Positions 3,001 to 60,520 of a stretch of 64,000 nucleotides of DNA are shown here, piece by piece (within the stretch, counting starts at the first letter, position 1; each line of letters starts with the position of its first letter). Position numbers and translations under genes: made by a program. The DNA is taken from NCBI GenBank assembly GCA_958295805.1, contig OY282373.1:2141001-2205000 (forward strand), in the 5' to 3' direction. The notes beneath the pieces are model-generated. The model saw only the letters and a program-made list of their open reading frames with translations, was not told the origin of the DNA and did not search any database. This stretch comes from an uncultured Nitrospirales bacterium (lineage in GTDB: Bacteria; Nitrospirota; Nitrospiria; Nitrospirales; UBA8639).

Positions 3001-6000
3001 TCGGTAATGGTCAGCGTCAGGCCCATCGGGGGCGACACGCCGTTGCCGCCCGACGCCGCGCCCGAGACCGTCACCGTCTTGTCCGGCGCCTGGACGTCGT
3101 TGTTCACCGCCGTGAGCGTCACCGTCCCCGTGCTCGCGGTCGAATTCGCGGCGATGGTCAGCGTCTTGTTCGTGCTCAGCGCGTAGTCGGCCACGACCGC
3201 GCCCGACAACGGCGCCGCGGACACCGTGACCATCACCGCTTCGCTGGATGCGCCGGAGAGCGCCGCGGTCACCGTGGTCACGCCGCTGCCCTCGGAAATC
3301 GACGATGACGACAGGGCCAGCGTCACCGTCGGCAACGCCTCGTCGTCAATGATGGTCAGCGTCACGTCCGCCGGATCCTCCACCATGCGCCCGCCCGCGG
3401 CCGTTCCCGACACCGTCACCGCCTTGTTCGGCGCGGACACGTCGTTGTCATTGGCCGTGACGGTCACGGTTCCCGAACTCGTCGTCGCCCCCGCCGCAAT
3501 GGTCAGCGTCGTCCCCGTCCGCGTGAAGTCCCCCGACACCGCCGGAGCCACCTCCGTTGCCGACACCGTCACCGTCACCGCTTCGCTGGACGGGTGCGAA
3601 AGCTCCGCGGTTACCGCCGCCGCGTTGTTCGCCCCGCTTTCGTCGACCGACGCCCGCGACAGCGACAGCGACAGCGTCGGCAGCACGTCGTCGTCCTTCA
3701 GCGTCAGTGTGGTCTCCGCCAGGGCCGTCAGGCCGTTGCCGCCGGCCGCAATCGCCGCGACCGTCACCGACTTGTCCGGCGAATCCGTGTCGTTGCCGTT
3801 CGCGGTCACCGTCACGGTCCCCGAACTCGTCGTCGCCCCCGCCGCGATGGTGAGCCTCCTCCCCGTCTGCGTGAAGTCGTCCATCGTCGCGGGCGACACC
3901 GGCGTCGTCGACACCGTCACCGTCGTCGGCGTGCTCGACGCACCTGACAACGCCGCCGTCACCGTCGAAACCCCGCCGGTCTCCGAAACCGCCGCCGCCG
4001 ACAGGACCAGCGAAAGCGTCGGCGCCGTTTCATTGTCCGTCAGCATCAGCGCCGCCCCGGTCACCGTCACGGTCTCCGCATTCGCCGCGGCCTGGGCGTT
4101 CGCGGCCGTGCCCGTCACCGTCGTCGAACGCCCGCCGCTGCCTTCGTACACGACGTTGTCCACCGCCGTGACCAACGCCGTGTCCGAGGCGTTCGCCGTC
4201 TCGCCCGCCGCGATCTCGATGGTCGCGTCCGACCCCACCGTGTAGAAGCCCAATTCCGGCATCACCGTCACCGTCGTCGCCGCGCTCGACGGATGCGACA
4301 GCGTCGCCGTCACCGTCGTGACGTTGCCCGAACCGCTCTCGTCGATGGTTGAGGCCGACAGCGACAGCGTCACCCCCGGCGCGTCGTCGTCGTCCTCAAC
4401 GGTGAACGTCAGGCTGGTCGGGTCCGCCACCCCGCGCCCGCCGGTGGCCACGCCCGACACCGTCGCCGCCTTGTCCGGCGCATCGGTCGCGTTATCGACC
4501 GCCGTGATCGTCACCGCGCCCGCGCTCGTCGTCGAACCCGCGGCGATGGTCAGCATCGTGTTCGCGCTCAGGCTGAAATCGCCGGCCACCGCCGGAAGCG
4601 TCGGCGACAGCATCACCGCGACCTCCACCGCCTCGCCCGACGGGTGATTGAGCGCCGCGGTCACCGTCGTGACGTTGCCCGACCCGCTCTCGTCGATGGT
4701 CAAGGCCGACAGCAACAGCGTCAGCGTCGGCAGCGCGTCGTCATCGACGATGGTCAGCGTCGCGTCCGACGGGGACTCGGCCCCGTTGCCCCCCGACGCC
4801 GCGCCCGAGACCGCCACCCGCTTGTCCGCCGAATCCGTCGTGTCCGGCTCTGCCGTCACCGTGACCGCGCCGGTGCTCGTCGTGTTCCCCGCCTCGATGG
4901 TCAGCGTCGTGCCCGTCAACGTGAAATCCCTTCCCGCGCCCGGCGAGGCCGACACCGTGATCGTGGTCGCCTCGCTGGAGACGCCGGAGAGCGTCGCCGT
5001 TACCGTCGATACCCCGCTCGCCTCCGCGATCGACGCCGGCGAGAGCGCGAGCCGCGTCGTGGGTGTCGCCTCGTCGTCGGCCAGCGTCAGCGTCAGGCTC
5101 GTCGGGGCGGCGATCCCGTTGCCCCCCGACGCCGTGCCCGAGACCGTCACCCGTTTGTGCGGCGAATCCACGGCGTTGTCGTTGGCCGTGATCGTGACCG
5201 TGCCGGTGCTTGTCATGGCGTTCGCCGCGATGGTCAGCGTCGTCGCCGTGCTCAGATCGAAATCGCCGGCCACCGCGCCCGACGCCGCCACCGCCGCCGC
5301 CGACACCGTGACCATCACCGCTTGGCTCGACGTGCCGTTCAGCGCCGCCGTCACCGTCGCCACGCCGCCATCCTCCGAGACCGACGACGAGGACAGCACC
5401 AGCGACACCGTCGGCGGGCCGTCGTCGTCGCGGATCGTCAGGATCGCGTCCGGCGGGTCCGCCGCCCCAAGCCCGAGGGGGCCCGACGCCGAACCCGAGA
5501 CGGTCACGCTCTTGTCCGCCGAGTCGGTCGTGTTGCCGACGGCCGTCACCGTCACGGTGCCCGCGCTCGTCGTCTGCCCGGCCGCGATGGTCAGCGTGTT
5601 CGCCGCGCTCAGCTCGAAATCGCCCTCCACCGCCTCGGTTCCCTGCGGCGCCGCCGACACCGTCACCGTCACCGCGTTGGCCGAGGGGTTGGAGAGCGTC
5701 GCCGTCACCGTCGTGACGCCGCCGCTCTCCGAGATCGAGGCCGGCATCAGGGCCAGGGCCGAGCTCGGCTGCGCGTCGTCGTCGGCGATGGTCAGGGTCA
5801 GGGTCAGGGGCGCCGTCACTAGACTGTGCCCGCCGGCCACCGTCCCGCTCACCGTCGCGGTCTTGGCCGCTGAGTCGATGGCGTCGTCCACCGCGGTGAG
5901 CGTCACCGTGCCCGTGCTCGCCGTCGCCCCCGCCGCAATGGTCAGGGTCTTGGCCGCGCTCAGGCTATAGCCGCCGTCCTCGGCAAGGGCCGCGTACACC

Positions 6001-6165
6001 GGCGTCGCCGAGACCGTCACCACGATCGCCTCGCCCGAGGTCCCGCCGCTCAGGCTTGCCGTCACCGTGGTCGCATTGCCCGTCCCGCTCTCGTTGATCG
6101 TGTCGGGATTCCCCGGGTCCGGGTCCGACAGGGCCAGCGCCAGCGTCGGCGTCGGGTCGTCGTCC
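1..6165 (-). repeat. Coding tandem array of about 17 units of ~112 codons
   Basis: Within the giant gene, units of about 336-345 bp recur. Each encodes SxSxSSISExGGVxTVTATLS, a hydrophobic TLTIAAG strand, an AVTVTAxxNxxDSPDKxVTVSG segment and an acidic DDD linker. Units differ from each other, so the array is old or diversifying. It is interrupted once, at about 2640-2995, by a module without the repeat motif. Confidence 0.85.
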
Positions 6166-8060
6166 GTGATCGTGCCCACGCCGGTGGCGGCGCTCCCCAG
6201 TATTGCGCCGGAGGGGTTGCTCAGCGCGATCCTCACCGTCTCGTCCGGTTCGTCCAGCGCGTCTCCCGTCACCGTCACCTCGAAGGTCTGGCTCGTCTCC
6301 GACGCGGCGAAGGTCAGCGTCCCGCCCGTGATGGCCGTGTAGTCGGTCCCGGAGGTCGCGGTGCCCGGGTCCGCGGCCGCGGCGTAGGCCACCGTCACTT
6401 GCCGTCCCGGCACCCGGTGCAGGGTCACGTCGTATTCCAGGGTCGCCGTCGCGCCCGCCGCGCCTTCCGTCGCACTCGGCGAGGAGATGGAGACCGTGAT
6501 CTCCTCGATCTCGATGGAGAAGGTCAACCTCCCACTGTCGCCGTCCGCGTCCGTCGCCACCATCGTGTAGTTCGTCGCCCCTTGCACCCCGGTGGGCGTG
6601 CCGGAAATGGTTCGCGTCGCCGCGGCGAAGCTCAGGCCGGCCGGCAGGCTTCCCTCGATGGTATAGGTCACGCCGCCGTCGCCGCCCGTCGCCGCCGGCA
6701 GCACCTGCGACACCGCGTTGCCCCTCACCCAGCTATAGGCCGGGGTCGAGCCGAAGGTCGGCACGGTCTGCTGCCCGCGCACCTGATGGTTCGCGTCGTC
6801 CAGCGTCGACGCGAAGTCCAGGGTCACGTAGTCGGAAAGAGTGTCGACGGGTCCGCGGCGCCACTGGAGACTGCGGTGCTGCCTGCCGGCGCCCATCGGA
6901 TTCGTCGGGAAGGAGATGCCGTCGCGGTCCCAGTCGCTCGCCTGCACCGCGTAGCTGAAATCGAGCGTTCTGCTCCTATCGGTATGGTCGGGATCGCATA
7001 CCCGGGGGCTGTTGCTCCCGATCCGGATGGTCAGGCACGCATTGCTCCTCTTGACAGAGATGAGGTCGTGCGTGAAGCTCACCCTCACCTTGATGTTGTC
7101 GTTGGGCCCAAAATCCCCGGTCTTGCCGTAGGTCTTGTCCGCCCCCGGGTCCGACCTGATCTCGATCTTCTCGATCCCCGCGCCGACCTTCACCTCCAGG
7201 GTGAAGGCCAGATCGGCCGTGCGGCTGAACCCGTCCGTCGCCCGCAGCGTGTAGTCGGTCCGCGTCAACGCGCTGGGAGAGATCGCCGGGGCCGTCGTGA
7301 TCGTCGCCGTAGACGGGTCCAGCGAAAAGTCGCTCGGCAGGGCCGGCGTTACCGAATAGGTGAGGTTGTACACGGCGGCCGCGTTGTTCACCGCCGGCAG
7401 CCGGTAGTTCACCGACGCGCCCACGTAGAAGAGGACGGCCGGGCCCGTCACCCCGGAGAAACTCGGCGCCGGCGTGTCCACCTTGTCGCCGGACTGGTCG
7501 CTCATCGCGGGGTGGTTTTTGCTGACGTCATCGAAGTTTGTCACGCCGCCCCCCCTCGGGCGGGAAATCCCGACATTGAGGGCGCCGCCGGTCAGCGCGT
7601 TCGCCGCCACGCTCACCCCGTCGGTGTCGCGGTCCCCCTTTTGCACCGTGTAGCGGAACTCCAGCCTGGGGGGATCCCTGAGGTCGTTCCTTGTGACTTC
7701 CCCGGTCACCGTCTTGACGGTGCCGCCGACGTTGAGTTTCAGCACAGGGTTGGCCATGCTGCGGATGAAGAGCGCCCCCAGCGAGGTCACGGGCCGCACT
7801 CGCACCACGATTTCCTCGCCGGGCATGTAGGTGTCCCCCGACGCCGGGGTGGAGGTGATGTCCGGCGACTGCAAGTAGGTCGGTTGCGCCGCGGCCGGCG
7901 CCGCGGGGAGGGCCGACAGGAAGGCGATGCCCAGGAAGGCCGCGGCGAACGGCAGCCCGGCGGCCGCGCGCCGGCCTCTACCGGCCACGGCCTTCACGGC
8001 ACTGATGCTTCTGCTTTTAGCGAAGCGCGGGGCCGCCTTTGCCATGCTTGCCACTTTCAT
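1..8060 (-). CDS. Giant secreted Calx-beta/Ig-like repeat protein (adhesin-like), 3' end beyond window
   Basis: One minus-strand frame stays open from ATG 8060 to the left edge, at least 2,686 codons; no stop is reached. The N-terminus has a basic stretch, a hydrophobic segment and an Ala-rich end (PAAPAAAQ), read as a signal peptide. Then come a non-repeat region, an Ig-like segment, a putative-Ig (He_PIG-like) domain with LPAGLSF and ISGTPTG at about 6600-6780, a Calx-beta-like domain (SGTDYTAITGGTLTF, TITDDD) at about 6150-6480, and about 17 repeats of roughly 112 residues (SISENGGVSTVTATLS, TLTIAAG, TLRDDD). Such proteins are usually surface or secreted and bind Ca2+ or other surfaces; adhesion here is inference. 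In-frame ATG 8102 and 8045 are alternative starts; no good ribosome site is seen. The gene is clearly richer in G+C than the rest of the window. An anchor or sorting signal would lie outside. Confidence 0.88.
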   Translation of the reverse strand, partial: MKVASMAKAAPRFAKSRSISAVKAVAGRGRRAAAGLPFAAAFLGIAFLSALPAAPAAAQPTYLQSPDITSTPASGDTYMPGEEIVVRVRPVTSLGALFIRSMANPVLKLNVGGTVKTVTGEVTRNDLRDPPRLEFRYTVQKGDRDTDGVSVAANALTGGALNVGISRPRGGGVTNFDDVSKNHPAMSDQSGDKVDTPAPSFSGVTGPAVLFYVGASVNYRLPAVNNAAAVYNLTYSVTPALPSDFSLDPSTATITTAPAISPSALTRTDYTLRATDGFSRTADLAFTLEVKVGAGIEKIEIRSDPGADKTYGKTGDFGPNDNIKVRVSFTHDLISVKRSNACLTIRIGSNSPRVCDPDHTDRSRTLDFSYAVQASDWDRDGISFPTNPMGAGRQHRSLQWRRGPVDTLSDYVTLDFASTLDDANHQVRGQQTVPTFGSTPAYSWVRGNAVSQVLPAATGGDGGVTYTIEGSLPAGLSFAAATRTISGTPTGVQGATNYTMVATDADGDSGRLTFSIEIEEITVSISSPSATEGAAGATATLEYDVTLHRVPGRQVTVAYAAAADPGTATSGTDYTAITGGTLTFAASETSQTFEVTVTGDALDEPDETVRIALSNPSGAILGSAATGVGTITDDDPTPTLALALSDPDPGNPDTINESGTGNATTVTASLSGGTSGEAIVVTVSATPVYAALAEDGGYSLSAAKTLTIAAGATASTGTVTLTAVDDAIDSAAKTATVSGTVAGGHSLVTAPLTLTLTIADDDAQPSSALALMPASISESGGVTTVTATLSNPSANAVTVTVSAAPQGTEAVEGDFELSAANTLTIAAGQTTSAGTVTVTAVGNTTDSADKSVTVSGSASGPLGLGAADPPDAILTIRDDDGPPTVSLVLSSSSVSEDGGVATVTAALNGTSSQAVMVTVSAAAVAASGAVAGDFDLSTATTLTIAANAMTSTGTVTITANDNAVDSPHKRVTVSGTASGGNGIAAPTSLTLTLADDEATPTTRLALSPASIAEASGVSTVTATLSGVSSEATTITVSASPGAGRDFTLTGTTLTIEAGNTTSTGAVTVTAEPDTTDSADKRVAVSGAASGGNGAESPSDATLTIVDDDALPTLTLLLSALTIDESGSGNVTTVTAALNHPSGEAVEVAVMLSPTLPAVAGDFSLSANTMLTIAAGSTTSAGAVTITAVDNATDAPDKAATVSGVATGGRGVADPTSLTFTVEDDDDAPGVTLSLSASTIDESGSGNVTTVTATLSHPSSAATTVTVMPELGFYTVGSDATIEIAAGETANASDTALVTAVDNVVYEGSGGRSTTVTGTAANAQAAANAETVTVTGAALMLTDNETAPTLSLVLSAAAVSETGGVSTVTAALSGASSTPTTVTVSTTPVSPATMDDFTQTGRRLTIAAGATTSSGTVTVTANGNDTDSPDKSVTVAAIAAGGNGLTALAETTLTLKDDDVLPTLSLSLSRASVDESGANNAAAVTAELSHPSSEAVTVTVSATEVAPAVSGDFTRTGTTLTIAAGATTSSGTVTVTANDNDVSAPNKAVTVSGTAAGGRMVEDPADVTLTIIDDEALPTVTLALSSSSISEGSGVTTVTAALSGASSEAVMVTVSAAPLSGAVVADYALSTNKTLTIAANSTASTGTVTLTAVNNDVQAPDKTVTVSGAASGGNGVSPPMGLTLTITDNDGSLPSGGTRWTNSGLPGPDWDVTTASLLGKTASQPIAMTGTYSPNVTDVWACATKTVGQTSGSGSVPGPSSDDCTKLTDNSRPTTIALTQAMIDNDGVVIVFTIGTGGANVQYLNAEWVPVTALPKATLSLSPSSVWESAGVSVVTATLDKGAFSAATLTVAVSVAPPALEGDFALSAATTLTFAKDETASTGIVTITGVDNVVDTPDKRVTVSAAASGDVRAPPAATLTLRDDDEPPAPTLVLSPSSISESGGVATVTAVLSHPSGAPTTITVSAAAVAPAIRGDFTQTGTALTVPAGRTESTGAVTITARGNAVDSPDKTVAVSGMASNRQGVSAVTGATLAIADDDATPTAALALMPASISENGGVSTVTATLSHTSSEPVTITVTAAAVAPAIPGYFTRTGTTLTIAAGRTESAGAVTITANDNNVNSPDKQVAVSGSASGGLGVANPPDATLAIRDDDVLPSGLPAVSLVLSSSSISENGGVATLSVVLSAPATTDVRVTRLSASPDADDAQPGYSVTPLGTSLTITAGETASTGAFVITGVDDSVDSQNQEVIISGRVPDGTATPPANVTLTLVDDEPTPAVSLALAPSSISESGGVSTVTATLSGASSEAVTVTVSAAPGTGAAARDFTLSAAETLTIAAGSTVSTGVVTLTAVGNAVVTPDKQVTVSGAVAGGNGASAPNPLALTLEDDDARPTASLVLSSSSISENGGVVLVSAALSYPAREAVTITVSAAPVSPAVAADFMLIGATLTIAAGETTSTGTVTVTAHDNNADAADKTVTVSGTASGGGVADPADAALTLRDDDGAPTVSLVLSPASIAEAGGVATVSATLSGTSIEAVTVTVSAAPGAWASTGDFTLSSQATLTIAAGSLTSTGAVTVTANANNVDSPDGTVTVSGSAAGGEVADPTDAALTLRDDDDPLEATLSASPASISENGGVSTVTATLSHPSSAVTKITVTPVSGAYTVDPPTAMIVIQAGRTENAADAATIF

Positions 8061-8403
8061 CGCGACGACCGTCAGGAACCTCTGCTCAGTTGGGAATTTC
8101 ATAGCGTGGGAAGCGCGACCGGCGGCATGAGATGCCGCCCTACGACTTTCCTCGCGACAACCGTCAGGAACCTCTGCTCAGTTGGGAATTTCATAGCGTG
8201 GGAAGCGCGACCGGCGGCATGAGATGCCGCCCTACGACTTTCATCGCGACGACCGTCAGGAACCTCTGGTCAGTTGGGATTTTCATAGCGCGACCGGCGG
8301 CATGAGATGCCGCCCTACGACTTTCATCGCGACGACCGTCAGGAACCTCTGCTCAGTTGGGAATTTCATAGCGCGACCGGCGGCATGAGATGCCGCCCTA
8401 CGA
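8053..8403. repeat. Four-copy tandem repeat (periods 92, 92, 83 bp) spanning the giant gene's start
   Basis: Units begin at 8053, 8145, 8237 and 8320 and are nearly identical; the last two lack a 9-bp segment. Each contains the palindrome GGCGGCATGAGATGCCGCC followed by CTACG. Read on the minus strand, the units carry the sequence around the gene's ATG, so the units at 8237 and 8320 also present an ATG AAA GTC; in the 8145 unit that ATG is mutated. A regulatory role is not shown. Confidence 0.9.
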
Positions 8404-8406
8404 CGT

Positions 8407-8486
8407 GGGACGCCCGCACGCGGAAGGACCGGGACCGACGTGGCCCCGTGCCGTTTGGATAATCGGGACGCCCGCACGCGGAGGGA
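8407..8486. repeat. Direct repeat of 22 bp, two copies
   Basis: A G+C-rich segment at 8407-8428 recurs at 8465-8486 (GGGACGCCCGCACGCGG core, small differences after it). It lies in the gap between the tandem repeat and hflK. The rest of the 8487-8735 gap is A+T-richer and holds only hflK's leader, including two copies of GTTGAAATTGC just before the gene. Confidence 0.6.
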
Positions 8487-8735
8487 TACCCGAGGTCAAT
8501 CTCCACGAACTCCCACATCGCCGGAGAATCACATTTTTTGTATTCTCTCAGAATTCTTATGCAATTCTCTAGGAAAACGTCATTATTTTCAATGCTTTTC
8601 TGTCAAAAAAGACGGGTGAGACCTGGGGCGCTTGCCTCCGTCGGAGTTTTCTGTTACCGTGGGCGACGTTGCTTTGTTCACGCATTCTTCCTCGTCGTTG
8701 AAATTGCCCTGTTGAAATTGCGAAGGTGAACCATC

Positions 8736-9785
8736 ATGGCTTGGGAACCAAAAGATCCGTGGGGACAATCCGGGGGAGCCGACCCGTTGGATGACGTCCT
8801 GAAAAAAGCGCAACAACAATGGCACCGGATGAAACCCGCCCGCGGGATGAAGACCATTGTCCTGCTGGTCGCGGCCGTGCTGGTGCTCTCCCAATCCATC
8901 TTTAAGGTCGAACCCGATGAAGAAGGGCTCGTCAAGCGATTCGGCGACGTGGTGCGAACGGTCGGCCCCGGGCCGCACGTCAAGGTGCCGTTTCTTGAAA
9001 CCGTGGTCACGCCCAAGGTGGAAAAACTTCACCGGTTGGAGGTGGGCTTCCGCACCAACCTGCGCGGCCGCACTCAGATCGTCCCGCAGGAAGCCCTCAT
9101 GCTGACCGGGGACATGAACATTCTTTCCGTGGAATTCATCGTTCAATACAAAATCAGCAACGCCAAGGATTATCTGTTCAACGTGGCCGACGTCGAAGAA
9201 ACCATCCGAAAATCCGCGGAGGCCGCGATGCGGGAAGTCATCGGCAAGAATAAAATCGACGAGGCGCTGACCGTCGGCAAAGCCGGCATCCAACAGTCCA
9301 CGCAAGAATTACTCCAGACGATCGTGGATCAGTATCGCGGCGGTGCCCAGATTGCGACCGTGCAGTTGCTGGACGTCAATCCTCCTCAAAAAGTGGCCAA
9401 ATTTTTCAAGGACGTGGCGAGTGCCAAGGAGGAACGGGAGCAACTCATCAATCAGGCCCACGGCTATCGGAACGACATCATTCCTAAAGCCAAAGGACAG
9501 GCCGCTCAGGACATCAATGAAGCGAAGGGCTACTCCCAGTCGAGAATCGCTCGGGCCCAGGGTGAAGCGAATCACTTTTTGCAGACGCTGGAAGAGTATA
9601 AAAAAGGCAAGGACGTCATCGGTAAACGGGTGTACATCGAAACCATGGAGCACGTCCTCTCCAACGTGGACAAGATTATTCTGGATTCCAAAGCCGCGGG
9701 GAACGTGTTGCCGTACCTCCCGTTGGAACGAATGCGGAAACTCCCGACCACGCCTCAGACTTCTTCTCCGGGGGGATCTCAATGA
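8736..9785 (+). CDS. hflK: HflK, membrane band-7/SPFH protein
   Basis: HflK and HflC form a membrane complex that surrounds and modulates the FtsH protease in the inner membrane. The 349-residue product has a Gly/Asp-rich N-terminus (PKDPWGQSGGADPLDD), one membrane segment at about residues 41-58, then the SPFH domain (VEPDEEGLVKRFGDVVRTV, GPGPHVKVPF) and a long Ala/Glu/Lys-rich helical region. The start follows GAAGGTG. It overlaps hflC by 4 bp (ATGA), so the two are translationally coupled. Confidence 0.95.
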   Translation: MAWEPKDPWGQSGGADPLDDVLKKAQQQWHRMKPARGMKTIVLLVAAVLVLSQSIFKVEPDEEGLVKRFGDVVRTVGPGPHVKVPFLETVVTPKVEKLHRLEVGFRTNLRGRTQIVPQEALMLTGDMNILSVEFIVQYKISNAKDYLFNVADVEETIRKSAEAAMREVIGKNKIDEALTVGKAGIQQSTQELLQTIVDQYRGGAQIATVQLLDVNPPQKVAKFFKDVASAKEEREQLINQAHGYRNDIIPKAKGQAAQDINEAKGYSQSRIARAQGEANHFLQTLEEYKKGKDVIGKRVYIETMEHVLSNVDKIILDSKAAGNVLPYLPLERMRKLPTTPQTSSPGGSQ

Positions 9786-10639
9786 AACAGAAGCTGCTGC
9801 TCGGGATCGTCGGGATCATCATCCTGCTGTTCATGCTGGGCGCGTCGCCGTTCTTTATTCTGGATTTAACGCAAACGGCCATCGTGGTCCAACTGGGCGA
9901 ACCCAAGCGCACCCTGACGGAACCGGGACTGAAGTTCAAAAAACCCGTGTTTGAAGAAGTGACCTACTTCGATAAACGGTTGCTGGATTACGACGTGCCC
10001 GCCCGTGAAGTCATTACCCAGGATAAGAAAACGATCCTGATCGATAATTTTGCCAAATGGCGCATCGTGGACGCCCTGATGGTCTACAAGGCGTTTCAAA
10101 CCCAACGGGGCGCGCTGCAACGGTTGGACGACATTATCTATTCGGAGCTGCGCGTGGAACTCGGTCGGCATGAACTCTCGGAAATCGTCTCGGCGAACCG
10201 CCTGTTAATCATGTCCGAGGTCGCCAAACGAGCCAACACCAAAGCTTCGAAATACGGCTTGGAAGTGCTGGACGTGCGAATTAAACGAGCCGACCTGCCG
10301 GAACAGAACGCGAAGGCCGTGTTCGACCGGATGCAGGCGGAACGGGAACGCATCGCCAAACAGTACAAAGCCGAAGGCGCGGAAGAAGCCCAGAAGATTC
10401 GGTCGGAAGCGGAAAAGGATCGGTCCATTCTTTTAGCCGACGCCTACAAAACTTCCCAGGAAATCCGTGGCGAAGGTGAAGCGAAGGCCTTTAAGATTTA
10501 CGCCGACGCGTATCGCCAGGACCCGAAGTTCTTTGAATTCATCCGGTCCATGGAAGCGTACAAGAAAACGTTTGCCGACAGGACGACCATGGTCCTGAGT
10601 CCCGATTCTGAATTTTTGCGATTCCTGAAGAAACGCTGA
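9782..10639 (+). CDS. hflC: HflC, membrane band-7/SPFH protein
   Basis: Partner of HflK in the FtsH-regulating complex. The 285 residues start with a membrane anchor at about 4-26, followed by the SPFH domain (DLTQTAIVVQLGEPKRTL, VPAREVITQDKK) and the charged helix AEGAEEAQKIRSEAEKDR typical of the family. The length is normal. It begins inside the last codons of hflK. No convincing terminator is seen downstream before the pentapeptide gene 77 bp away. Confidence 0.95.
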   Translation: MKQKLLLGIVGIIILLFMLGASPFFILDLTQTAIVVQLGEPKRTLTEPGLKFKKPVFEEVTYFDKRLLDYDVPAREVITQDKKTILIDNFAKWRIVDALMVYKAFQTQRGALQRLDDIIYSELRVELGRHELSEIVSANRLLIMSEVAKRANTKASKYGLEVLDVRIKRADLPEQNAKAVFDRMQAERERIAKQYKAEGAEEAQKIRSEAEKDRSILLADAYKTSQEIRGEGEAKAFKIYADAYRQDPKFFEFIRSMEAYKKTFADRTTMVLSPDSEFLRFLKKR

Positions 10640-10716
10640 TCTCTCTTCCTCTGCGTCCGTCACGAACAACCGGCTCACTTCCGTGATTCCGGCCGACGGT
10701 CGCCCCCCTTCCCCTC

Positions 10717-11373
10717 ATGGCCAATCCCGAACACGTGGCTCTGTTGCTGAAAGGATTGGAGGTCTGGAATAAGTTCCGACGCACCCAGCCGGACGTGCGC
10801 CCTGATCTTCGAGGGGCGGACCTTTCGGGTTATGATTTCACAAGAATGGACTTGAGCCGGTGCGACCTGCGCCAGGCGGATTTGTCCGACGCCTATTTGT
10901 TTCAAGCTACTCTGGAAGAGGCGGATCTGACCGACGCCACCCTGACCGAAGCTGACGTGATTGAAGCAAACGTCATCAAGGCCGTCCTGGTCAACGCCAC
11001 CATGGTCATGGCTGATTTTTCAGGAACGGGCATGGTGCGGGCGAATCTCGCCGGCGCGGATTTGACCAAGGCCAACCTCACTCGGACCGCGTTGCCGTGG
11101 GGAAATTTACAGGGGTGCCGGTTGATCCACGCCACCTTGAAGATGGCCGACCTGCGGGAAGCGAATCTCACGGACGCCAACTTGTCCGACGCCAACCTGC
11201 AAGATGCGTCGCTGACCGGAACCATTTTTCGCCGGGCGAATCTCGAAGGCGCCACGCACGTCTCAACGGCGTTACTCGGGAAAGCCAACACGCTCGCGCA
11301 GGCCAGACTGGCTCCGGCCATCCACGAAGCAATTACCCAGTGTCATCCTCACCTTCTTCGTGACTCTTCGTGA
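10717..11373 (+). CDS. Pentapeptide-repeat protein
   Basis: The 218 residues contain about thirty A(D/N)LXX pentapeptides from residue 27 to about 190 (DLRGADLSGYDF, ADLRQADLSDA-like runs, ANLTDANLSDANLQDA). Such repeats fold as a right-handed quadrilateral beta-helix. The N-terminal 25 residues (EHVALLLKGLEVWNKFR) form a helix found in other members of this kind. The function of this family is mostly unknown; a DNA-mimic role like that of Qnr/MfpA is possible but not indicated. The 3' end overlaps the convergent GTPase gene by 25 bp. Confidence 0.85.
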   Translation: MANPEHVALLLKGLEVWNKFRRTQPDVRPDLRGADLSGYDFTRMDLSRCDLRQADLSDAYLFQATLEEADLTDATLTEADVIEANVIKAVLVNATMVMADFSGTGMVRANLAGADLTKANLTRTALPWGNLQGCRLIHATLKMADLREANLTDANLSDANLQDASLTGTIFRRANLEGATHVSTALLGKANTLAQARLAPAIHEAITQCHPHLLRDSS

Positions 11374-12314
11374 CTGCGGCGGATGAGGACGATGCGCCCA
11401 AGGAGATGAGCGGGAGGGGTGACGGTGGGTTCGATGACGTCGACTCTGGAGCCAACGCCTTGAACCAGGCGAAGGCCTTCGGCGGTTTGCACGAACCCTT
11501 TGGCTCTGAGCGTCTGACGCGACGTGATCTGGTGGATGAGGGTTTCGGAGGCAATTCCACGGGGAACGACGAATTCTTCCGTTTCAAACGCCTCATGCGT
11601 ATGTGGACCGTGATGCGATTGCGTGCGCGTGCGCTTCGGCAGGGCCTCGGGGTCAGGGGGAAAGAGTGCCAGCGGACTGACGTTGGCGTTCACGGCCCGT
11701 ATGATGGGAGTCCCCGGCGCCAGATTCTTCACCACTGCATGGACTCGATCCAGTTGATCGGCGTCAATGAGGTCGATTTTGTTGAGGATCAGCAAGTCCG
11801 CGGACGACGCCTGCTGCTCAACGGTGCCTTCCAGGTCACGGCCTTCAGCCACCTGCTCGGCGTTCACCACGACGGCCGACACACAATCGCCAACCCACTC
11901 GGACACCGGTTCTCGCCAGAAATTCAGCAACGTGTCAAAGGGCAAGGCCACGCCGGACGTTTCGACGATGACGCGATCGGGATGAACCTCTTCCCGAATC
12001 CGTTGCAGGGTCGTCACGAGTTCATCGGAAAGTTTGCAGCAGACGCACCCTCCTTCCAATTCCACGTAATTTCGACCGGCCTGGTTTCCTAACAGGGCTT
12101 GATCGATCCCCAATTCGCCGAATTCATTGGACACCACGGCGATACGTGTGCCTTGCGTCCGGGCCTCTGCCAACAGGTGCCGCACGAGGGTGGTTTTCCC
12201 CGAGCCTAAAAATCCCGAGACCACCAGCGCGGGAACGCCGCCCACGGGAGTGGAGGGTGCATCCTTTCTGCTTCCGTGTTCACGTGATGAGGAAAAATTG
12301 TCTTGGGACGTCAT
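11349..12314 (-). CDS. CobW/COG0523-family GTPase (putative metallochaperone)
   Basis: A G3E-class P-loop GTPase of 321 residues. Seen: Walker A GFLGSGKTTL at about residue 34, the family metal-binding motif GGCVCCKLSDEL at about 85-96 (CxCC), and the G4 motif ILNKIDLID. A His-rich stretch (HHGPHTHEAF) precedes the C-terminal CobW_C domain. COG0523 proteins deliver Zn, Co or Ni to target enzymes; the substrate here cannot be told from sequence. The gene is monocistronic and convergent with the pentapeptide gene. Confidence 0.88.
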   Translation of the reverse strand: MTSQDNFSSSREHGSRKDAPSTPVGGVPALVVSGFLGSGKTTLVRHLLAEARTQGTRIAVVSNEFGELGIDQALLGNQAGRNYVELEGGCVCCKLSDELVTTLQRIREEVHPDRVIVETSGVALPFDTLLNFWREPVSEWVGDCVSAVVVNAEQVAEGRDLEGTVEQQASSADLLILNKIDLIDADQLDRVHAVVKNLAPGTPIIRAVNANVSPLALFPPDPEALPKRTRTQSHHGPHTHEAFETEEFVVPRGIASETLIHQITSRQTLRAKGFVQTAEGLRLVQGVGSRVDVIEPTVTPPAHLLGRIVLIRRSHEESRRR

Positions 12315-53008: not shown

Positions 53009-53053
53009 TGTCGTCAATCCTATACATTTTTATATACAAATATCAACCGAAAA

Positions 53054-53185
53054 ACATTCTGAAATGAATGCGAACCTGATTGTCTTATGTGGATGATGTA
53101 TGCCGTTCTTGATTGGGCAGACGGCTTGGCGGTAGAGTCGAGGAAACGGAGAGGTGCGAGAGTGGCCGAATCGGGCGGTCTCGAA
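53054..53185 (+). repeat. 132-bp repeat copy A (tRNA upstream region and 5' half)
   Basis: Recurs at 54110-54241 with a one-base gap and a few changes. It runs from ACATTCTGAAATGAAT to the anticodon loop of the tRNA. Confidence 0.85.
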
Positions 53186-53235
53186 AACCGTTGACCGGCA
53201 ACGGTCCGTGGGTTCGAATCCCACCCTCTCCGCCA
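53148..53235 (+). tRNA. tRNA-Ser (CGA)
   Basis: 88-nt class II tRNA including encoded CCA: acceptor GGAGAGG/CCTCTCC with discriminator G, anticodon loop CTCGAAA (anticodon CGA), long variable arm (GACCGGCAACGGTCC) and TψC arm GTGGGTTCGAATCCCAC. Full. Confidence 0.96.
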
Positions 53236-53265: not shown

Positions 53266-53610
53266 CTACACCGCGACACTGAGCCTGCCCCGTCGCCGTG
53301 AACGCGGCTCTCGAATGACGATTTCCACGTCACGCCCAAGGGCCGTCAACAGACGCAAGAGGCGCTCAACCGAATAGTCACGAAAACTTCCCCGCAGGAG
53401 GCGCGACACGTCGGGTTGGGACAGTCCGAGCAACTGCGCCGCCTCAACCTGCTTGAGTCCACGCCGGCGGATGATCGTATCAATGCGGGTGACAAGCTCT
53501 GCCTTCAGCAAGTGAGCGTCGGCGTCGGGAAATCCCAGGTCCGCGAACACGTTACCGCTGCCGCGTTCGATCTCCATTTTTTCCACGTGTATTGATCGAC
53601 CCTTCGCCAT
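53266..53610 (-). CDS. XRE-family antitoxin (HigA-like)
   Basis: 114 residues; helix-turn-helix RGLKQVEAAQLLGLSQPDVS followed by RLLRGSFRDYSVERLLRLLT, as in antitoxins paired with Gp49-type HigB. The start overlaps the toxin gene by 59 bp. The C-terminus is Arg-rich. Confidence 0.82.
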   Translation of the reverse strand: MAKGRSIHVEKMEIERGSGNVFADLGFPDADAHLLKAELVTRIDTIIRRRGLKQVEAAQLLGLSQPDVSRLLRGSFRDYSVERLLRLLTALGRDVEIVIREPRSRRRGRLSVAV

Positions 53611-53965
53611 ACGTGTCCCTGTCGTGCTGCTCCGCCGCCTTCAGTCTGCGCTTGACCAGATCAATCTCCTGCCTCGGCGTCGCGATACCCCGCTTCGCTT
53701 TCTTCTGGAATACATGCAGCACGTAGATGGCGGCCTTGAACCAGACCGTGTACACCGCCCTGTAGGTGTCGCCGTCGTAACGTGAGACAACCTCCAGGAC
53801 GTGGACACCCAACGCCTTGAGCCGTTTGACATCGCGGTGTGTGAATCCGACTTGAGCCTGATACAAAGCAAAACCGACGTGGTCCTGCACTGCGGCTAGA
53901 AACTTCTTCAGATCCTCTTTGCTTGATCCGACCCATTTAACAGGCGTCAGTACCGCTTTGCCCAC
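53552..53965 (-). CDS. HigB/Gp49-type toxin (RelE-like)
   Basis: 137 residues, VLEVVSRYDGDTYRAVYTVW and AAIYVLHVFQKKAKRGIATP, EIDLVKRRLKAAEQHD: Gp49-type mRNA-interferase. First gene of the toxin-antitoxin pair next to the tRNA. The C-terminal tail (GEGSINTRGKNGDRTRQR) overlaps the antitoxin gene. Confidence 0.82.
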   Translation of the reverse strand: MGKAVLTPVKWVGSSKEDLKKFLAAVQDHVGFALYQAQVGFTHRDVKRLKALGVHVLEVVSRYDGDTYRAVYTVWFKAAIYVLHVFQKKAKRGIATPRQEIDLVKRRLKAAEQHDRDTYGEGSINTRGKNGDRTRQR

Positions 53966-54027
53966 ATCAAATTATAGCGATTTCACCATATTGCGCAAGC
54001 GGCATCCTTACGGTAAATACGCCAACG

Positions 54028-54055
54028 CTTGTCTGCCGGAGCACAGACAGGCAGT
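54028..54055. repeat. Palindrome of the GCCTGTCTGC family
   Basis: GCTTGTCTGCCGGAGCACAG with a downstream ACAGGCAG arm. The rest of the 53966-54109 gap shows nothing further. Confidence 0.5.
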
Positions 54056-54109
54056 TTCTGCCTCAGCAAACGGCCGGATTGTTAATAACCTATTCCAAAC
54101 AAATGGCAA

Positions 54110-54241
54110 ACATTCTGAAATGAATACCAACCTGATTGTCTTATGTGGATGATTTATGCCGTTCTTGATTGGTCAGCCAGCTTAGCGGTAGAGTCGGGGG
54201 AAACGGAGAGGTGCGAGAGTGTCCGATCGGGTGGTCTCGAA
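54110..54241 (+). repeat. 132-bp repeat copy B: truncated tRNA-Ser region
   Basis: Second copy of 53054-53185. The tRNA sequence stops in the anticodon loop at 54241 (GGTCTCGAA), and unrelated DNA with the methyltransferase remnant follows. Not a functional tRNA. Confidence 0.85.
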
Positions 54242-54271: not shown

Positions 54272-54784
54272 GCGGCTATTTATAGCCATTTACGGCAACA
54301 CCAAAAAGCACTCTCCAAGAAAGCCGGAACAAACCAATGGTACGAATTGCAGGCAAGCCCTAGTGATAGACTTGATTTGCTTTTCGGAGGGGAAAAACTG
54401 TTCGGGATGAATATACCCGATAGAGGACGCTTCGCCTACTCAGACGAGGAAATATATTGCAACGACAAAGGGGTTATGATGACGGGGTCATTCCTGAAAT
54501 ACCTCTGCGCTGTTTTGAACAGTTCCCTTATGACTTGGTTGATGCAAAATACCGCGCTGACAACCGGAGTAGGCCTTACCCAATGGAAGAAGTTTGCCGT
54601 AGAACGTTTGCCTGTCCCCCAAATATCCGCCACCAAGCAACGCCCGTTCATCACTCTGGTGGACAACATCCTGACGGCCAAAACCGCCGACCCGAAGGCA
54701 AACATCAGCGAACAGGAAGCGCAAATAGACCGGCTGGTGTATGGACTGTACGGCCTGAAGCCAGAGGAGATAGTTCTGGTCTAA
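54272..54784 (+). pseudogene. C-terminal remnant of a type IIG/class I DNA methyltransferase
   Basis: A frame open from 54272 gives AIYSHLRQHQKALSKKAGTN, WYELQASPS, then RFAYSDEEIYC, LKYLCAVLNSSLMTWLM and VERLPVPQISA, which match the C-terminal specificity (TaqI-like) part of Eco57I-type enzymes. The N-terminal methyltransferase domain is absent; a stop lies at 54269. It abuts the truncated tRNA. Not expected to be active. Confidence 0.75.
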
Positions 54785-54819: not shown

Positions 54820-55929
54820 ATGGATATGACAACTCCCAACCCCGATGCAGCGAACATAACAAAAGCATCTAGATTAAAAGCGGTTGACTTTTTCTGTGGC
54901 GGAGGTGGAATGACCTACGGCATGAAGCAGGCGGGCATCACCGTACTCGCAGGCTTGGATAATGATCATCATTGTGAAAAAACCTATGTAAAAAATCACC
55001 ATGATACTCGGTTCATTTTTGCTGACATCACCAAGGTGGAAATTAATATTTTGTCCGATATCGGTATTACCACTAACGATAACAACCTTGTTTTTATCGG
55101 CTGTAGCCCTTGCCAGCATTGGAGTATTATAAACACAGATCGTCAGAAATCCGAGAAAAGCACAAATTTACTTACCTATTTTCAGAAATTCGTTAAATAC
55201 TATAACCCCGGATATGTCGTCATTGAGAATGTTCCGGGAATAAAACGCTATGCCGAGAAAAGCAAGTTAAACACCTTTATCTGTTTTCTGTCCCGACGCG
55301 GATACTACTTTGATGACAGTGTTATTAACGCGAATAACTACGGAGTTCCTCAAAGCAGAAGACGGTACGTGCTGATTGCTTCTCGTGTTAATAAACACAT
55401 ACGGTTGCCGACCCCCAATAAATCCGGGCCCGTTGTCAGAGATTTTATCGGGCCAAAAAACGGATTTAAGGAAATTGACGCAGGCCATATAGATAAAACG
55501 GATTTTAATCACAGTTGTTCAGGTCTAAATGAGATTAACCTGAAAAGGCTCTACTTAACTCCGAAAAACGGGGGCACAAGAAAATCTTGGAGCAAACACA
55601 AAGATTTGCAGATTGATGCTTACCAAGGACGCGATCATTGCTTTCGGGATGTATACGGAAGAATGTCTTGGGACAAACCAGCGCCTACGATTACCACTCG
55701 TTTTAACAGCATATCCAACGGCAGATTCGGACACCCCAATGAAGATCGAGCGATCTCGTTGCGAGAAGGTGCTACCTTACAAACATTCCCGCACAGTTAC
55801 CTATTCTACTCGGACAGCATATCAACCGTTGCCAAACTAATCGGCAACGCCGTACCTCCTGAGTTGGCAAGAAGACTGGCATTAGCCCTGCAAGTCCAAA
55901 ATGTTACAAGTACGGAGCATAAGCCGTGA
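54820..55929 (+). CDS. DNA (cytosine-5) methyltransferase
   Basis: 369 residues. Motifs I (VDFFCGGGGMTYGMKQAG), IV (IGCSPCQHWS, catalytic Cys), VI (VVIENVPG), VIII (PQSRRRYVLIA) and IX/X (SLREGATLQTFP, IGNAVPPELARRL) are all present, with the target-recognition part in between. ATG 54820 is used; the longer upstream frame enters the pseudogene. Low G+C. Stop overlaps the next gene (GTGA), so it is one operon with the ATPase and Vsr. Confidence 0.93.
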   Translation: MDMTTPNPDAANITKASRLKAVDFFCGGGGMTYGMKQAGITVLAGLDNDHHCEKTYVKNHHDTRFIFADITKVEINILSDIGITTNDNNLVFIGCSPCQHWSIINTDRQKSEKSTNLLTYFQKFVKYYNPGYVVIENVPGIKRYAEKSKLNTFICFLSRRGYYFDDSVINANNYGVPQSRRRYVLIASRVNKHIRLPTPNKSGPVVRDFIGPKNGFKEIDAGHIDKTDFNHSCSGLNEINLKRLYLTPKNGGTRKSWSKHKDLQIDAYQGRDHCFRDVYGRMSWDKPAPTITTRFNSISNGRFGHPNEDRAISLREGATLQTFPHSYLFYSDSISTVAKLIGNAVPPELARRLALALQVQNVTSTEHKP

Positions 55930-57794
55930 CAAACAAAACTGTAAAAATGGGATTTGACCCGAACACCATTGAACATTTGGGGGTCCAAATGTACAGCACG
56001 CTACCGCCGGTTATTGCAGAATTGGTAGCCAATGCCTATGACGCCGATGCGAAGAAAGTCAGAATATTCCTGGAAGACAAAGGTGAGAAAAAAATTACTG
56101 TTGAGGATACAGGACACGGGATGTCCTTTGAAAATTTGGAGGCTAAATTTCTAAAGATCGGTCGCAATAGAAGAGAAGAAGGAAATCAATATTCAGAGTC
56201 AGGAAAAAGAAAAGTTATCGGGAAAAAAGGCATCGGGAAGCTGTCGTTTTTCGGAATCGCAAATCATGTGGAAATTACTACCCGAAGAGAAGGCAAAGAG
56301 AATGCTTTTACGTTGGATTGGGCTGCTATAAAAAGGTCGGGCAGTGAATATAACGCGCCGGTGCATAAGTACAATGCCAAATGCTCTGAAGATCAATCCG
56401 GAACCAAAATCGTTTTGACCCAGATAAGACGAAAGACGTCATTTCAGCCAAAGGATTTAGCCATCAGTTTGGCCAGAACCTTTGCCGTATTTAATGAACA
56501 CAGGTTTGAAGTAGAAATCACTCACAATGATGAAAAACCCAGAAAAGTAACTAATGAAATGAAATACGATGGCGTTGAGACCGAGAATAGTTGGGACTTT
56601 CCGTATCAAGAGTCTGCTTTTCAATATGAATATGCCGAGCAAATTACCGGAAAGATCATCTCGGCAAAGACTCCTGTCGGCCCATCAATGAAAGGAATAG
56701 CCTTGTTTTCAAGAGGGAAATTGGTAAACAACCATGAATTTTACGGACAGAAAGCATCCAGCCATGGCTACACGTACCTCACCGGATGGCTGAGTATAGA
56801 TTTTGTTGACGATTGGGAACAGGATGTTATCGGAACAAACAGGCAGTCTTTGAATTGGGAAAATGAGAAGACATCCGACCTCCGTAGTTATCTGCAGCAT
56901 GTTGTGCAGAAAATCTATACCGAACAACGTAAGAAAAAAGCAGAATCTAAAAAGAATGCCATCCGGAGACGTACAGGGATTGATGTCGATAATTGGCTAC
57001 AAAAATTGCCGGGACATGAAAGAAATCTGGCCCAAAAAATAACCGACCAGATAATTGAAAACGAAGGCATAGACACGGAAAAGGCTGAGGGGTTACTCAG
57101 CTACGTGCAAGATGCTTTCCAGTTTGAGGCATTCAAAGAATTCGCCAACGATGTTGCTGATATGCAAGAAGTTGATAGTGCTGAATTCATTGCATTACTT
57201 AAAGAGTGGCAACTTGTTGAAGCCAAAGAACTGTATCGGCTTTCCTTAGGCAGAATTTCTACAATTAACGAACTTCGGAAGCATATAGATGACAATTCCT
57301 GGGAAGTTCCGACTATGCATCAATTTTTTAAGCAGTTCCCCTGGTTGCTAGATCCCAGAATTATTGAGTTCCAAGACGAGGTTTCCTATTCAAAACTTCT
57401 CAGGAAACACTATGCAGAAAAAGAACTAACAGAATCCGATAGAAGAATAGATTTCGTTTGCACGAGTGTTTCCAACAGTCGTTTTATCATTGAGTTGAAA
57501 AGACCCCGGCACACGGTAAACGCGAAGGATATAGAACAAGCTGCACAATATAGAGTGTTTCTAGAGAATCACATCGGCAACACGCTGGAGTCTGCAAGTC
57601 AGGTAGTTGCCTATATAGTCGGAGGTAAGCGGTCAAGTGATCCTTATGCTCAATCGAAAATGAAGACTTACTGCACAACCGGCCAAATATATGTCAAGAC
57701 TTATAGCGAACTCTTGGAGAATGCAAAAACCTATCATCAAGAGTTCATTGAAAAATATGAACAATTACAAAATCTTGGACAACTAAGTGAGTGA
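55926..57794 (+). CDS. MORC/MutL-like (GHKL) ATPase fused to PD-(D/E)XK-like domain
   Basis: 622 residues. N-terminal HATPase: IAELVANAYDADAKKVRIFL (N box), TVEDTGHGMSF (DxGxG), GKKGIGKLSFFGIA (G2). A middle helical region follows, then from about residue 450 a DUF4263/Shedu-like region with RRIDF (D509), IIELKRPRH (E523, K525) and EQAAQYRVFL, a PD-(D/E)XK pattern. Starts at GTG 55926. Prokaryotic MORC homologues in restriction-modification systems were described by Iyer, Abhiman and Aravind. Substrate and nuclease activity are inference. Confidence 0.82.
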   Translation: MTNKTVKMGFDPNTIEHLGVQMYSTLPPVIAELVANAYDADAKKVRIFLEDKGEKKITVEDTGHGMSFENLEAKFLKIGRNRREEGNQYSESGKRKVIGKKGIGKLSFFGIANHVEITTRREGKENAFTLDWAAIKRSGSEYNAPVHKYNAKCSEDQSGTKIVLTQIRRKTSFQPKDLAISLARTFAVFNEHRFEVEITHNDEKPRKVTNEMKYDGVETENSWDFPYQESAFQYEYAEQITGKIISAKTPVGPSMKGIALFSRGKLVNNHEFYGQKASSHGYTYLTGWLSIDFVDDWEQDVIGTNRQSLNWENEKTSDLRSYLQHVVQKIYTEQRKKKAESKKNAIRRRTGIDVDNWLQKLPGHERNLAQKITDQIIENEGIDTEKAEGLLSYVQDAFQFEAFKEFANDVADMQEVDSAEFIALLKEWQLVEAKELYRLSLGRISTINELRKHIDDNSWEVPTMHQFFKQFPWLLDPRIIEFQDEVSYSKLLRKHYAEKELTESDRRIDFVCTSVSNSRFIIELKRPRHTVNAKDIEQAAQYRVFLENHIGNTLESASQVVAYIVGGKRSSDPYAQSKMKTYCTTGQIYVKTYSELLENAKTYHQEFIEKYEQLQNLGQLSE

Positions 57795-58221
57795 CAAATA
57801 TTCCTCTCGGAAACGTAGCGAGATCATGTCGCATATATCCTCCAAGGACACAGTGCCCGAGGGTTTAGTTCGTAAATACCTGTTTTCCGAAGGATTCAGA
57901 TACAGAAAATATGTCGGCAATTTGCCCGGAAGTCCCGATGTGGTTTTATCCAAATATAAGACTGTTATTTTCGTTCATGGATGTTTTTGGCACGGCCACA
58001 CTTGTCCGCGTGGGAAATTACCCGCAACGAACACGGATTTTTGGCGCGAAAAAATAAACCGGAACAAACAAAGAGATATTAGAAACCTCAACGAATTGGA
58101 AAATGCGGGGTGGCATGTACTTGTTATTTGGCAGTGTGAAATCAGCAACAAACAAACAGAACGCTGGAAAATGAATGCAGTTTGTGAAGAAATCAAATCA
58201 TATGGGCTCTCTTCAAAGTAA
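57787..58221 (+). CDS. vsr: Very-short-patch (Vsr) endonuclease
   Basis: 144 residues. Vsr pattern: RSEIMSHISSKDTVPEGLVR, FRYRKYVGNLPGSPDVVL, VIFVHGCFWHGHTC and WREKINRNKQRD. It nicks T:G mismatches made by 5-methylcytosine deamination, which fits a C5-methyltransferase neighbour. Overlaps the ATPase gene by 8 bp (GTG 57787). Complete, including the metal and His sites. The 58222-58394 gap after it has no clear gene; short C-terminal-like reads suggest decayed DNA. Confidence 0.92.
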   Translation: MSDKYSSRKRSEIMSHISSKDTVPEGLVRKYLFSEGFRYRKYVGNLPGSPDVVLSKYKTVIFVHGCFWHGHTCPRGKLPATNTDFWREKINRNKQRDIRNLNELENAGWHVLVIWQCEISNKQTERWKMNAVCEEIKSYGLSSK

Positions 58222-58394
58222 AACTCCCGATTTGCTTTACGTCTAGAGATCTCCACAATCTGACTGACTACATCACCGAAGCCCAAGCCGACGATCCGGC
58301 AACGGACACCGGCGGGGAGGAAGCACGACTAGCCGGCGGTGTATCAACTCTATCAACGAGCATTTGAAAAGATTGCGATTGTCGAGAAACAGAA

Positions 58395-59594
58395 ATGAGC
58401 GAATCTGAAAGCAACGATTCAAAAATACAGAAGCTGCTCCGAGGTATTAGAAAAAAATCTCCGCAAGGCGAATACGTCTACAGAGGCGAACCCCAAAAAT
58501 ATAAGAAAATTTCCTCTGCGTTTTACCGAAAGTACGAAAAACAAATTGAAGCGGAGGAATTTAACCTTCAAATAGCCCAAGGGGAAATGCTGAAACAGGT
58601 AAAAGAATACACCAATTTTACCGATGAAACCGACGTCCTCACCGAACTGCAACATTACGGAGGGAAAACCAATCTGATCGACTTCACCACCGATTATCTC
58701 ATAGCATTATTCTTTGCCTGCGATGGCTTCTTCGAAAAAGACGGCAGAGTTATCCTGCTCAACCGAAAATCCAACAAGGAAAGAATCGCGTCTCCAAAGA
58801 AAAATCTGAACAACCGGGTCATCTCGCAGAAAAGCATATTTTTTCAATCCCCGAAAGGCTACCTCGACGAAGAGGATTTTGCCGTTATTCCTATTCCCGG
58901 AGAGATGAAACAACCCGTTTTACAGTACTTGAGTACATACCATGGCATTACAACGCATACCATTTACAACGATATTTTCGGCTACATCCAAAATCAGGAA
59001 AAACACCAAAACGCCTATACCAAGTTTTATATTGGTTTAACCTGTCAAGAAAAGGGTGAATACGAAGAAGCGATCAAGCATTATGACGAAACGATTCACA
59101 TCAATCGCCAACATGCCGAAGCCTACAACAACAGAGGAGCCGCCAAGGCCATGCTTGGCAGGTACGAGGAAGCCATTGCCGACTATGATCAAGCAATCCG
59201 CATCAATCGCCAACATGCCGCAGCCTACAAGAACAGAGTAGCCGACAAGGGCAAACTTGGCAGGCATGAGGAAGCCATGGCGGATTACACCGAAGCTATC
59301 CGCATCAATTCCAAAATTGCCGCAGCCTACAACAACAGAGGAGCCGACAAGGACAAACTTGGCAGACATGAGGAAGCCATTGAGGATTACAACGAAGCTA
59401 TCCGCATCAACCCCCAATATGCCGAAGCCTACAACCACAGAGGAATCGCCAATATAAAAATTAAGGCGTACAAAAAGGCACGCGTCGACTTGCAACACGC
59501 TTTTGAATTATCAACGAGACAAGGCGACCAAGAGTGGGCCCAGAACGCTCAGAGGTTGCTAGATGAACTACCGCCGGCCGGCAGCGAGGATTAG
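58395..59594 (+). CDS. FRG-domain protein with C-terminal TPR repeats
   Basis: 399 residues. FRG domain at about 25-125: [44 protein letters not shown]. From about residue 217, five TPR-like 34-residue units ([34 protein letters not shown]), nearly identical in DNA (102-bp unit, 59055-59480). FRG is a domain of unknown activity, common near defence genes. Low G+C like the preceding three genes; may belong to the same island. Confidence 0.8.
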
Positions 59595-60388: not shown

Positions 60389-60520
60389 GTGCGTTCATTT
60401 ACACGGACGAGTTTCTGGGATGCCTACCGGCGACTCCTGGAACATGTACCTGCCTGGGCTCCGGCAGACAGGCACTTTGGTTCGAGCATCTTGACCTCCC
60501 ATCTCGGTCTGTGCTTGTAG
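60389..60520 (+). pseudogene. RelE-like toxin, truncated by a repeat
   Basis: GTG 60389 opens VRSFTRTSFWDAYRRLLEHV, typical of a RelE-like toxin N-terminus, but from about residue 21 it runs into a palindrome (CCTGCCTGGGCTCCGGCAGA) and the repeat CACTTTGGTTCGAGCATC, then stops at 60520. The catalytic part is lost. The gap to 60597 shows nothing else. Confidence 0.7.
60449..60503. repeat. Palindrome plus direct repeat copy 2
   Basis: The GCCTGTCTGC-family palindrome (60449-60474), followed at once by CACTTTGGTTCGAGCATC (60473-60503). Inserted within the toxin frame. Confidence 0.7.

Follow-up and report, generated by a model that had tools for sequence, protein, structure and literature searches.

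Here we describe a 64,000-nucleotide stretch of DNA (the window) from an uncultured Nitrospirales bacterium (GenBank assembly GCA_958295805.1, contig OY282373.1, positions 2,141,001 to 2,205,000), in which three overlapping genes, encoding a methyltransferase (M), an ATPase-nuclease fusion protein (R) and a Vsr endonuclease (V), precede a gene with an FRG domain and TPRs. An earlier note on this DNA had ranked the four genes highest among possible defence systems not yet described. Our analysis leads to a different view: M, R and V very probably form a complete Type II restriction-modification (R-M) cassette, whose restriction enzyme carries a MORC/MutL-like ATPase, while the FRG-TPR gene, judged by the gene content of related loci, is a neighbour and no part of the R-M system. 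The four genes are as follows:

54820–55929, + strand: M, C5-cytosine DNA methyltransferase (Pfam DNA_methylase, 2e-52; TIGR00675 dcm, 4.4e-41; motifs)
55926–57794, + strand: R, predicted restriction endonuclease of 622 amino acids (NCBIfam NF050001, 328.7 bits; HATPase_c_3, 2.1e-26; motifs; structure models)
57787–58221, + strand: V, Vsr T:G mismatch nicking endonuclease (Pfam Vsr, 2.8e-32; TIGR00632, 1.9e-43)
58395–59594, + strand: FRG-TPR gene (Pfam FRG, 8.7e-15, plus TPRs; PDC-S15, 1.5e-20)

The first three genes are arranged as a single operon, as the earlier note had described, with correct coordinates and overlaps of 4 bp (GTGA) between M and R and of 8 bp between R and V. The methyltransferase is indeed complete, its motifs (FCGGGG at residue 25, PCQ at 97, ENV at 136 and QSRRR at 178) all being in place. 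The Vsr protein scores above the TIGR00632 cut-off and possesses all of the catalytic and zinc residues (D51, H64, C66, H69, H71, C73 and C117). The G+C content of the three genes is 41–43% (42% for the M-R-V stretch), compared with approximately 55% in the surrounding region. The FRG-TPR gene begins only after a 173-bp gap 3' of V, whose G+C content is 51%. The same low G+C had been ascribed to this gene; its value of 45.7% is lower than that of the surroundings, but is not quite that of M-R-V.

R comprises a GHKL ATPase with an S5-like domain (approximately residues 9–338), a helical linker and a PD-(D/E)XK nuclease domain (approximately residues 438–600). In an alignment of 53 sequences the GHKL motifs, i.e. 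E32 and N36 of the N box, D61-G63-G65 and G99-K101-G102-G104, are invariant, and so are the nuclease residues E460, D509, E523 and K525; the intact ATPase motifs and the D509/E523-K525 pattern noticed earlier are thus upheld. The full-length AlphaFold (AF2) model of R has a predicted local distance difference test score (pLDDT) of 86.6, and its residues 9–338 superpose on MORC3 (Z 23.6, 296 residues), with Hsp90 and MutL ranking behind. When modelled separately (pLDDT 90.2), the C-terminal domain displays the PD-(D/E)XK fold that the earlier note had postulated: it is best matched by EndoMS/NucS (Z 12.3, 110 residues) and by the Shedu nuclease (Z 12.0 over 143 residues, and 11.5), and then by FokI-type and other restriction nucleases. 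On the strength of the invariant residues and of these models, this is a real nuclease domain, and it is likely to be the cutting part of R. A search for a solved structure of a full-length relative of R matched GHKL domains only.

Two closer assignments of R were ruled out. It is not a MORC protein in the strict sense, since the MORC-specific S5 motif GhXhhpXXRhl is absent from R and from all 53 aligned sequences, and paraMORC, rather than MORC, is therefore the apt term. Nor is it a member of the Shedu family: a weak match to SduA_C is visible at the C-terminus, but remains below the Pfam gathering score of 27, both in the whole protein (19.7 bits) and in the C-terminus taken alone (23.5 bits). 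What R shares with Shedu (SduA) is the fold of the nuclease domain and this sub-threshold match; Shedu is not known to contain a GHKL ATPase or a methyltransferase, and the resemblance is confined to one domain.

The closest catalogued enzymes are those of the BbrUII/HgiDII type. Residues 7–619 (of 622) of R align with positions 2–654 (of 659) of NF050001, the NCBIfam model of these enzymes, and the score of 328.7 bits falls short of the curated cut-off of 550, so that R stands outside the characterised subfamily; R is also matched by the PADLOC model REase_II (Type II restriction enzyme). By profile comparison, R is related to the catalogued BbrUII/HgiDII restriction enzymes along its entire length, though not closely enough to pass the cut-off. 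As in those systems, in which M.HgiDII or M.BbrUII is encoded alongside, a C5 methyltransferase gene is adjacent, and the colinearity extends over the whole of R; the cassette of the window differs in its score and in having a Vsr gene within the operon. The statement of the earlier note that no standard restriction enzyme is present does not hold, as R itself is of a catalogued Type II kind. Since it is a relative of enzymes already named restriction endonucleases, R is not a cutting subunit by elimination: the nuclease domain of the supposed cutting fusion is real, but its undescribed status was not borne out.

Iyer, Abhiman and Aravind (2008; PMC2292703) described, under the name paraMORC3, proteins in which a GHKL-S5 module is joined to an E-D-ExK domain at the C-terminus and whose gene neighbourhoods include DNA methylases and Vsr. 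By comparison with the published description, R fits this family. It combines a GHKL and an S5-like domain with intact ATP motifs, a C-terminal E-D-ExK nuclease and linkage to C5 methyltransferase and Vsr genes, and likewise lacks the MORC-specific S5 motif. The two differ in that RecB-like hits were given for the paraMORC3 nuclease (PMC2292703), whereas that of R is closest to Shedu and NucS.

Gene neighbourhoods were surveyed in 80 related loci obtained from a scan of genome contigs; the survey covers relatives of R and is biased by the single peptide pattern used. A C5 methyltransferase gene is found beside R (within 1.5 kb) in 63 of the 80 loci, or in 53 of the 67 where the flank was sufficient. 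Neighbouring methyltransferase and endonuclease genes, a trait of Type II R-M systems, are thus found both in the window, where M and R overlap, and among the relatives. Vsr occurs within 2.5 kb of R in 27 loci, and the commonest complete gene orders are M-R (32 loci) and M-R-V (10 loci). An FRG gene lies within 6 kb of R at one locus only (L096), on the opposite strand, so that the co-occurrence anticipated by the earlier note was confirmed for the methyltransferase and Vsr, but not for FRG. The closest relative, in a Limisphaerales genome (L038; R 69%, M 76% and V 70% identical), has the order M-R-V without FRG, and no FRG gene was found at any of the five loci closest in R (L038–L042). The genome of the window also contains a second, distant set of these genes (R 27%, M 33% and V 38% identical to those of the window). 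This set (L004, C1:524000-540000, 6323–11781) has the order R-M-V and separates hsdS from hsdR in a Type I R-M locus; the next gene after it encodes TPRs but no FRG domain.

The product of the FRG-TPR gene of the window is probably an effector with an ADP-ribosyltransferase fold and a putative activity of that type; the FRG domain has been placed in the ADP-ribosyltransferase superfamily and proposed to act as an effector consuming nicotinamide adenine dinucleotide (NAD) (PMC9503650). Among 198 genomes of the phylum, FRG matches (E 1e-8 or better) were detected in three, and the only close one besides that of the window is in a genome of the same genus (G185, 78% identical). This orthologue is located at the tadA/tRNA-Ser(CGA) locus, where the island of the window also lies. 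It comes immediately after a Type IIG gene with a TaqI_C domain, whose 3' end it overlaps by ATGA; M-R-V is not present at that locus. The corresponding features of the window are the following:

53148–53235, + strand: tRNA-Ser(CGA), adjoining tadA (ARAGORN; tadA-tRNA-Ser kept in L132–L135)
54347–54784, + strand: fragment of another Type IIG restriction-methyltransferase gene, encoding the C-terminal TaqI_C specificity domain, the left flank of the cassette (TaqI_C, 8.6e-08; PADLOC REase_MTase_IIG, 1.3e-22)
58265–58398, + strand: decayed 3'-terminal remnant of a Type IIG gene with TaqI_C domain (alignment with the corresponding end of the TaqI_C gene of L132)

The decayed end, situated between Vsr and FRG-TPR, aligns with the end of the Type IIG gene found in G185; it is frameshifted and still terminates with ...IAIVEKQK* inside an ATGA overlap with the start of FRG-TPR; its counterpart peptide in L132 is ...LVSKLYQLTPEEIAIIEKQK*. 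In the light of the G185 locus and of this remnant upstream of FRG-TPR, the sequence is most simply read as the result of an insertion of M-R-V that parted a Type IIG gene from the FRG-TPR gene next to it; FRG-TPR was probably coupled originally to the Type IIG gene. The four genes could instead be seen as one new defence system, in which FRG-TPR, upon failure of restriction, would act as an effector that causes cell death or depletes NAD. They adjoin one another, their G+C content is lower than that of their surroundings, and the second M/R/V set of the same genome is also followed by a TPR gene, although one without FRG. Such a system is scarcely credible in view of the single, oppositely oriented FRG gene among the related loci and its absence from the closest five, the orthologous locus of G185, where FRG-TPR directly follows a Type IIG gene and M-R-V is lacking, and the Type IIG remnant that fills the 173-bp gap; co-occurrence and the G185 locus led us to reject it. 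With R belonging to a catalogued type and FRG-TPR being no partner of it, the claim of an undescribed system is not sustained.

Fragments of TaqI_C genes also occur upstream of M in L038 (5468–5854, 5886–6284 on the minus strand, and 6675–6851). The cassette may often land at Type IIG 3' ends, an idea which, coming from two unrelated genomes, is only a lead, and cassettes are possibly exchanged by recombination preferentially at TaqI_C 3'-end fragments.

Judged by its sequence context, the tRNA-Ser(CGA) gene beside tadA serves the island as its landing site within the genus. The 5' part of the tRNA gene together with its upstream flank (53052–53169) is duplicated approximately 1,057 bp downstream (54108–54226, 91–96% identical); the second tRNA-Ser copy is truncated, and the duplication looks like the trace of an island insertion at the tRNA. 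A Gp49-like/HTH gene pair resembling a HigB-HigA toxin-antitoxin module (53266–53965, minus strand) lies between the tRNA gene and its partial copy, and a 25-nt inverted repeat (54027–54051 and 60449–60473, 88% complementary), whose arms are 6.4 kb apart, brackets the island. At the same tRNA-Ser locus of a same-genus genome (L132, 5607–15659) there are genes for a PLD-helicase, a Fic protein and FRG-TPR, as well as an Eco57I-type methyltransferase gene broken by an apparent transposase gene. Elsewhere in the window (1–8102, minus strand), a reading frame with 70% G+C (approximately 56% in the genome) extends over at least 2,700 amino acids and runs past the window edge.

The recognition region of M shows 59% identity with that of gonococcal M.NgoAXIV, 35% with that of a HgiDII-type methyltransferase and 30% with that of the paralogue in the same genome. 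Because of the first of these values CCGG is predicted as the site, and on balance we favour it; CCGG is the site listed for NgoAXIV (PMC6789123), and according to a 2026 preprint CCGG cuts vanish upon deletion of NgoAXIII and NgoAXIV (PMC12871193). In this respect the cassette also departs from BbrUII/HgiDII: its site is probably not GTCGAC, a candidate suggested by the HgiDII analogy and set aside as the recognition region is nearer to M.NgoAXIV. The count ratio of GTCGAC in 400 kb of the genome is 0.48, but since the ratios of many palindromes are just as low and the genome has other R-M systems, site avoidance neither supports nor opposes CCGG.

A gonococcal locus (L118) agrees with the window in the order of M, R (here split) and V, with identities of 53–59% for M, approximately 40% for the ATPase half and 55% for V. 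Its Vsr gene of 423 bp has the length given for V.NgoAXIV. The locus was excluded as NgoAXIII, whose description (PMC6116569, PMC6789123) is fitted instead by the other gonococcal Vsr locus (L137), with a Vsr gene of 414 bp followed by a truncated methyltransferase gene. The NgoAXIV locus (M-R1-R2-V) has been reported to be necessary for CCGG cutting and for pilin variation (PMC12871193). Unlike in the window, R is split in L118 (8030–9709): a GHKL open reading frame of 297 amino acids without PD-(D/E)XK precedes one with a Ymh domain (PF09509, 2.9e-25), which replaces the PD-(D/E)XK domain. In the gonococcal strain concerned, the methyltransferase and R frames are interrupted as well.

Three observations weigh against reading M-R-V as a complete R-M cassette in which R cuts at CCGG. 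As stated above, R lies outside the characterised BbrUII/HgiDII subfamily. The close relative NgoAXIV may organise cutting differently, by means of a short GHKL gene and a Ymh gene. Finally, CCGG is not clearly under-represented (count ratio 0.95 in the same 400 kb), which would be uninformative for a recent arrival.

Beyond the gene content, intact motifs, predicted folds, co-occurrence and insertion scar established here, the action of the cassette may be pictured as follows. M would methylate cytosine-5 in the host's copies of the predicted CCGG site. Binding of ATP by the GHKL-S5 module would close an R dimer on DNA and thereby position two PD-(D/E)XK domains for cutting at an unmethylated site, while Vsr, by nicking T:G mismatches arising from deaminated 5-methylcytosine, would allow the host to retain its sites. 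No paper explaining the role of the ATPase in cutting by GHKL-fused restriction enzymes was found in our literature search.

The GHKL-S5 module resembles MutL as well as MORC, and gonococcal Vsr enzymes, including V.NgoAXIV, to which the Vsr of the window is 55% identical (L118), bind MutL, which stimulates them (PMC6116569). R might accordingly be mainly a MutL-like, ATP-driven switch that loads Vsr onto T:G mismatches, its role in restriction being secondary or having been lost. We consider this improbable: because the nuclease residues of R are invariant and the majority of related loci have retained M and R but lack Vsr, selection appears to act on cutting by R itself. A combined role is also improbable, in which R, with ATP, would be both the restriction enzyme and the loading partner of the Vsr of its operon, one complex serving restriction and the repair of deaminated sites. 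If it were true, the R-Vsr complex would parallel MutL-Vsr, and the split NgoAXIV enzyme, needed for pilin variation, would be a re-tailed version of the full-length type. That the cassette is a silent or decaying passenger of the island might be read from the gene fragments around it (two TaqI_C ends and the partial copy of the tRNA region), but with M, R and V all open, their motifs complete and their overlaps tight, it is highly unlikely.

A functional R-M cassette remains our preferred interpretation. GHKL-fused restriction enzymes are a group for which our structure search yielded no full-length solved structure, and the compact and intact R, with its predicted CCGG site and its kinship with gonococcal NgoAXIV, would be a convenient laboratory subject. 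More generally, what seemed to be a new four-gene island is most probably an R-M cassette of a known kind that sits within another system's operon, and the locus thus supplies a direct test for telling neighbours from partners.

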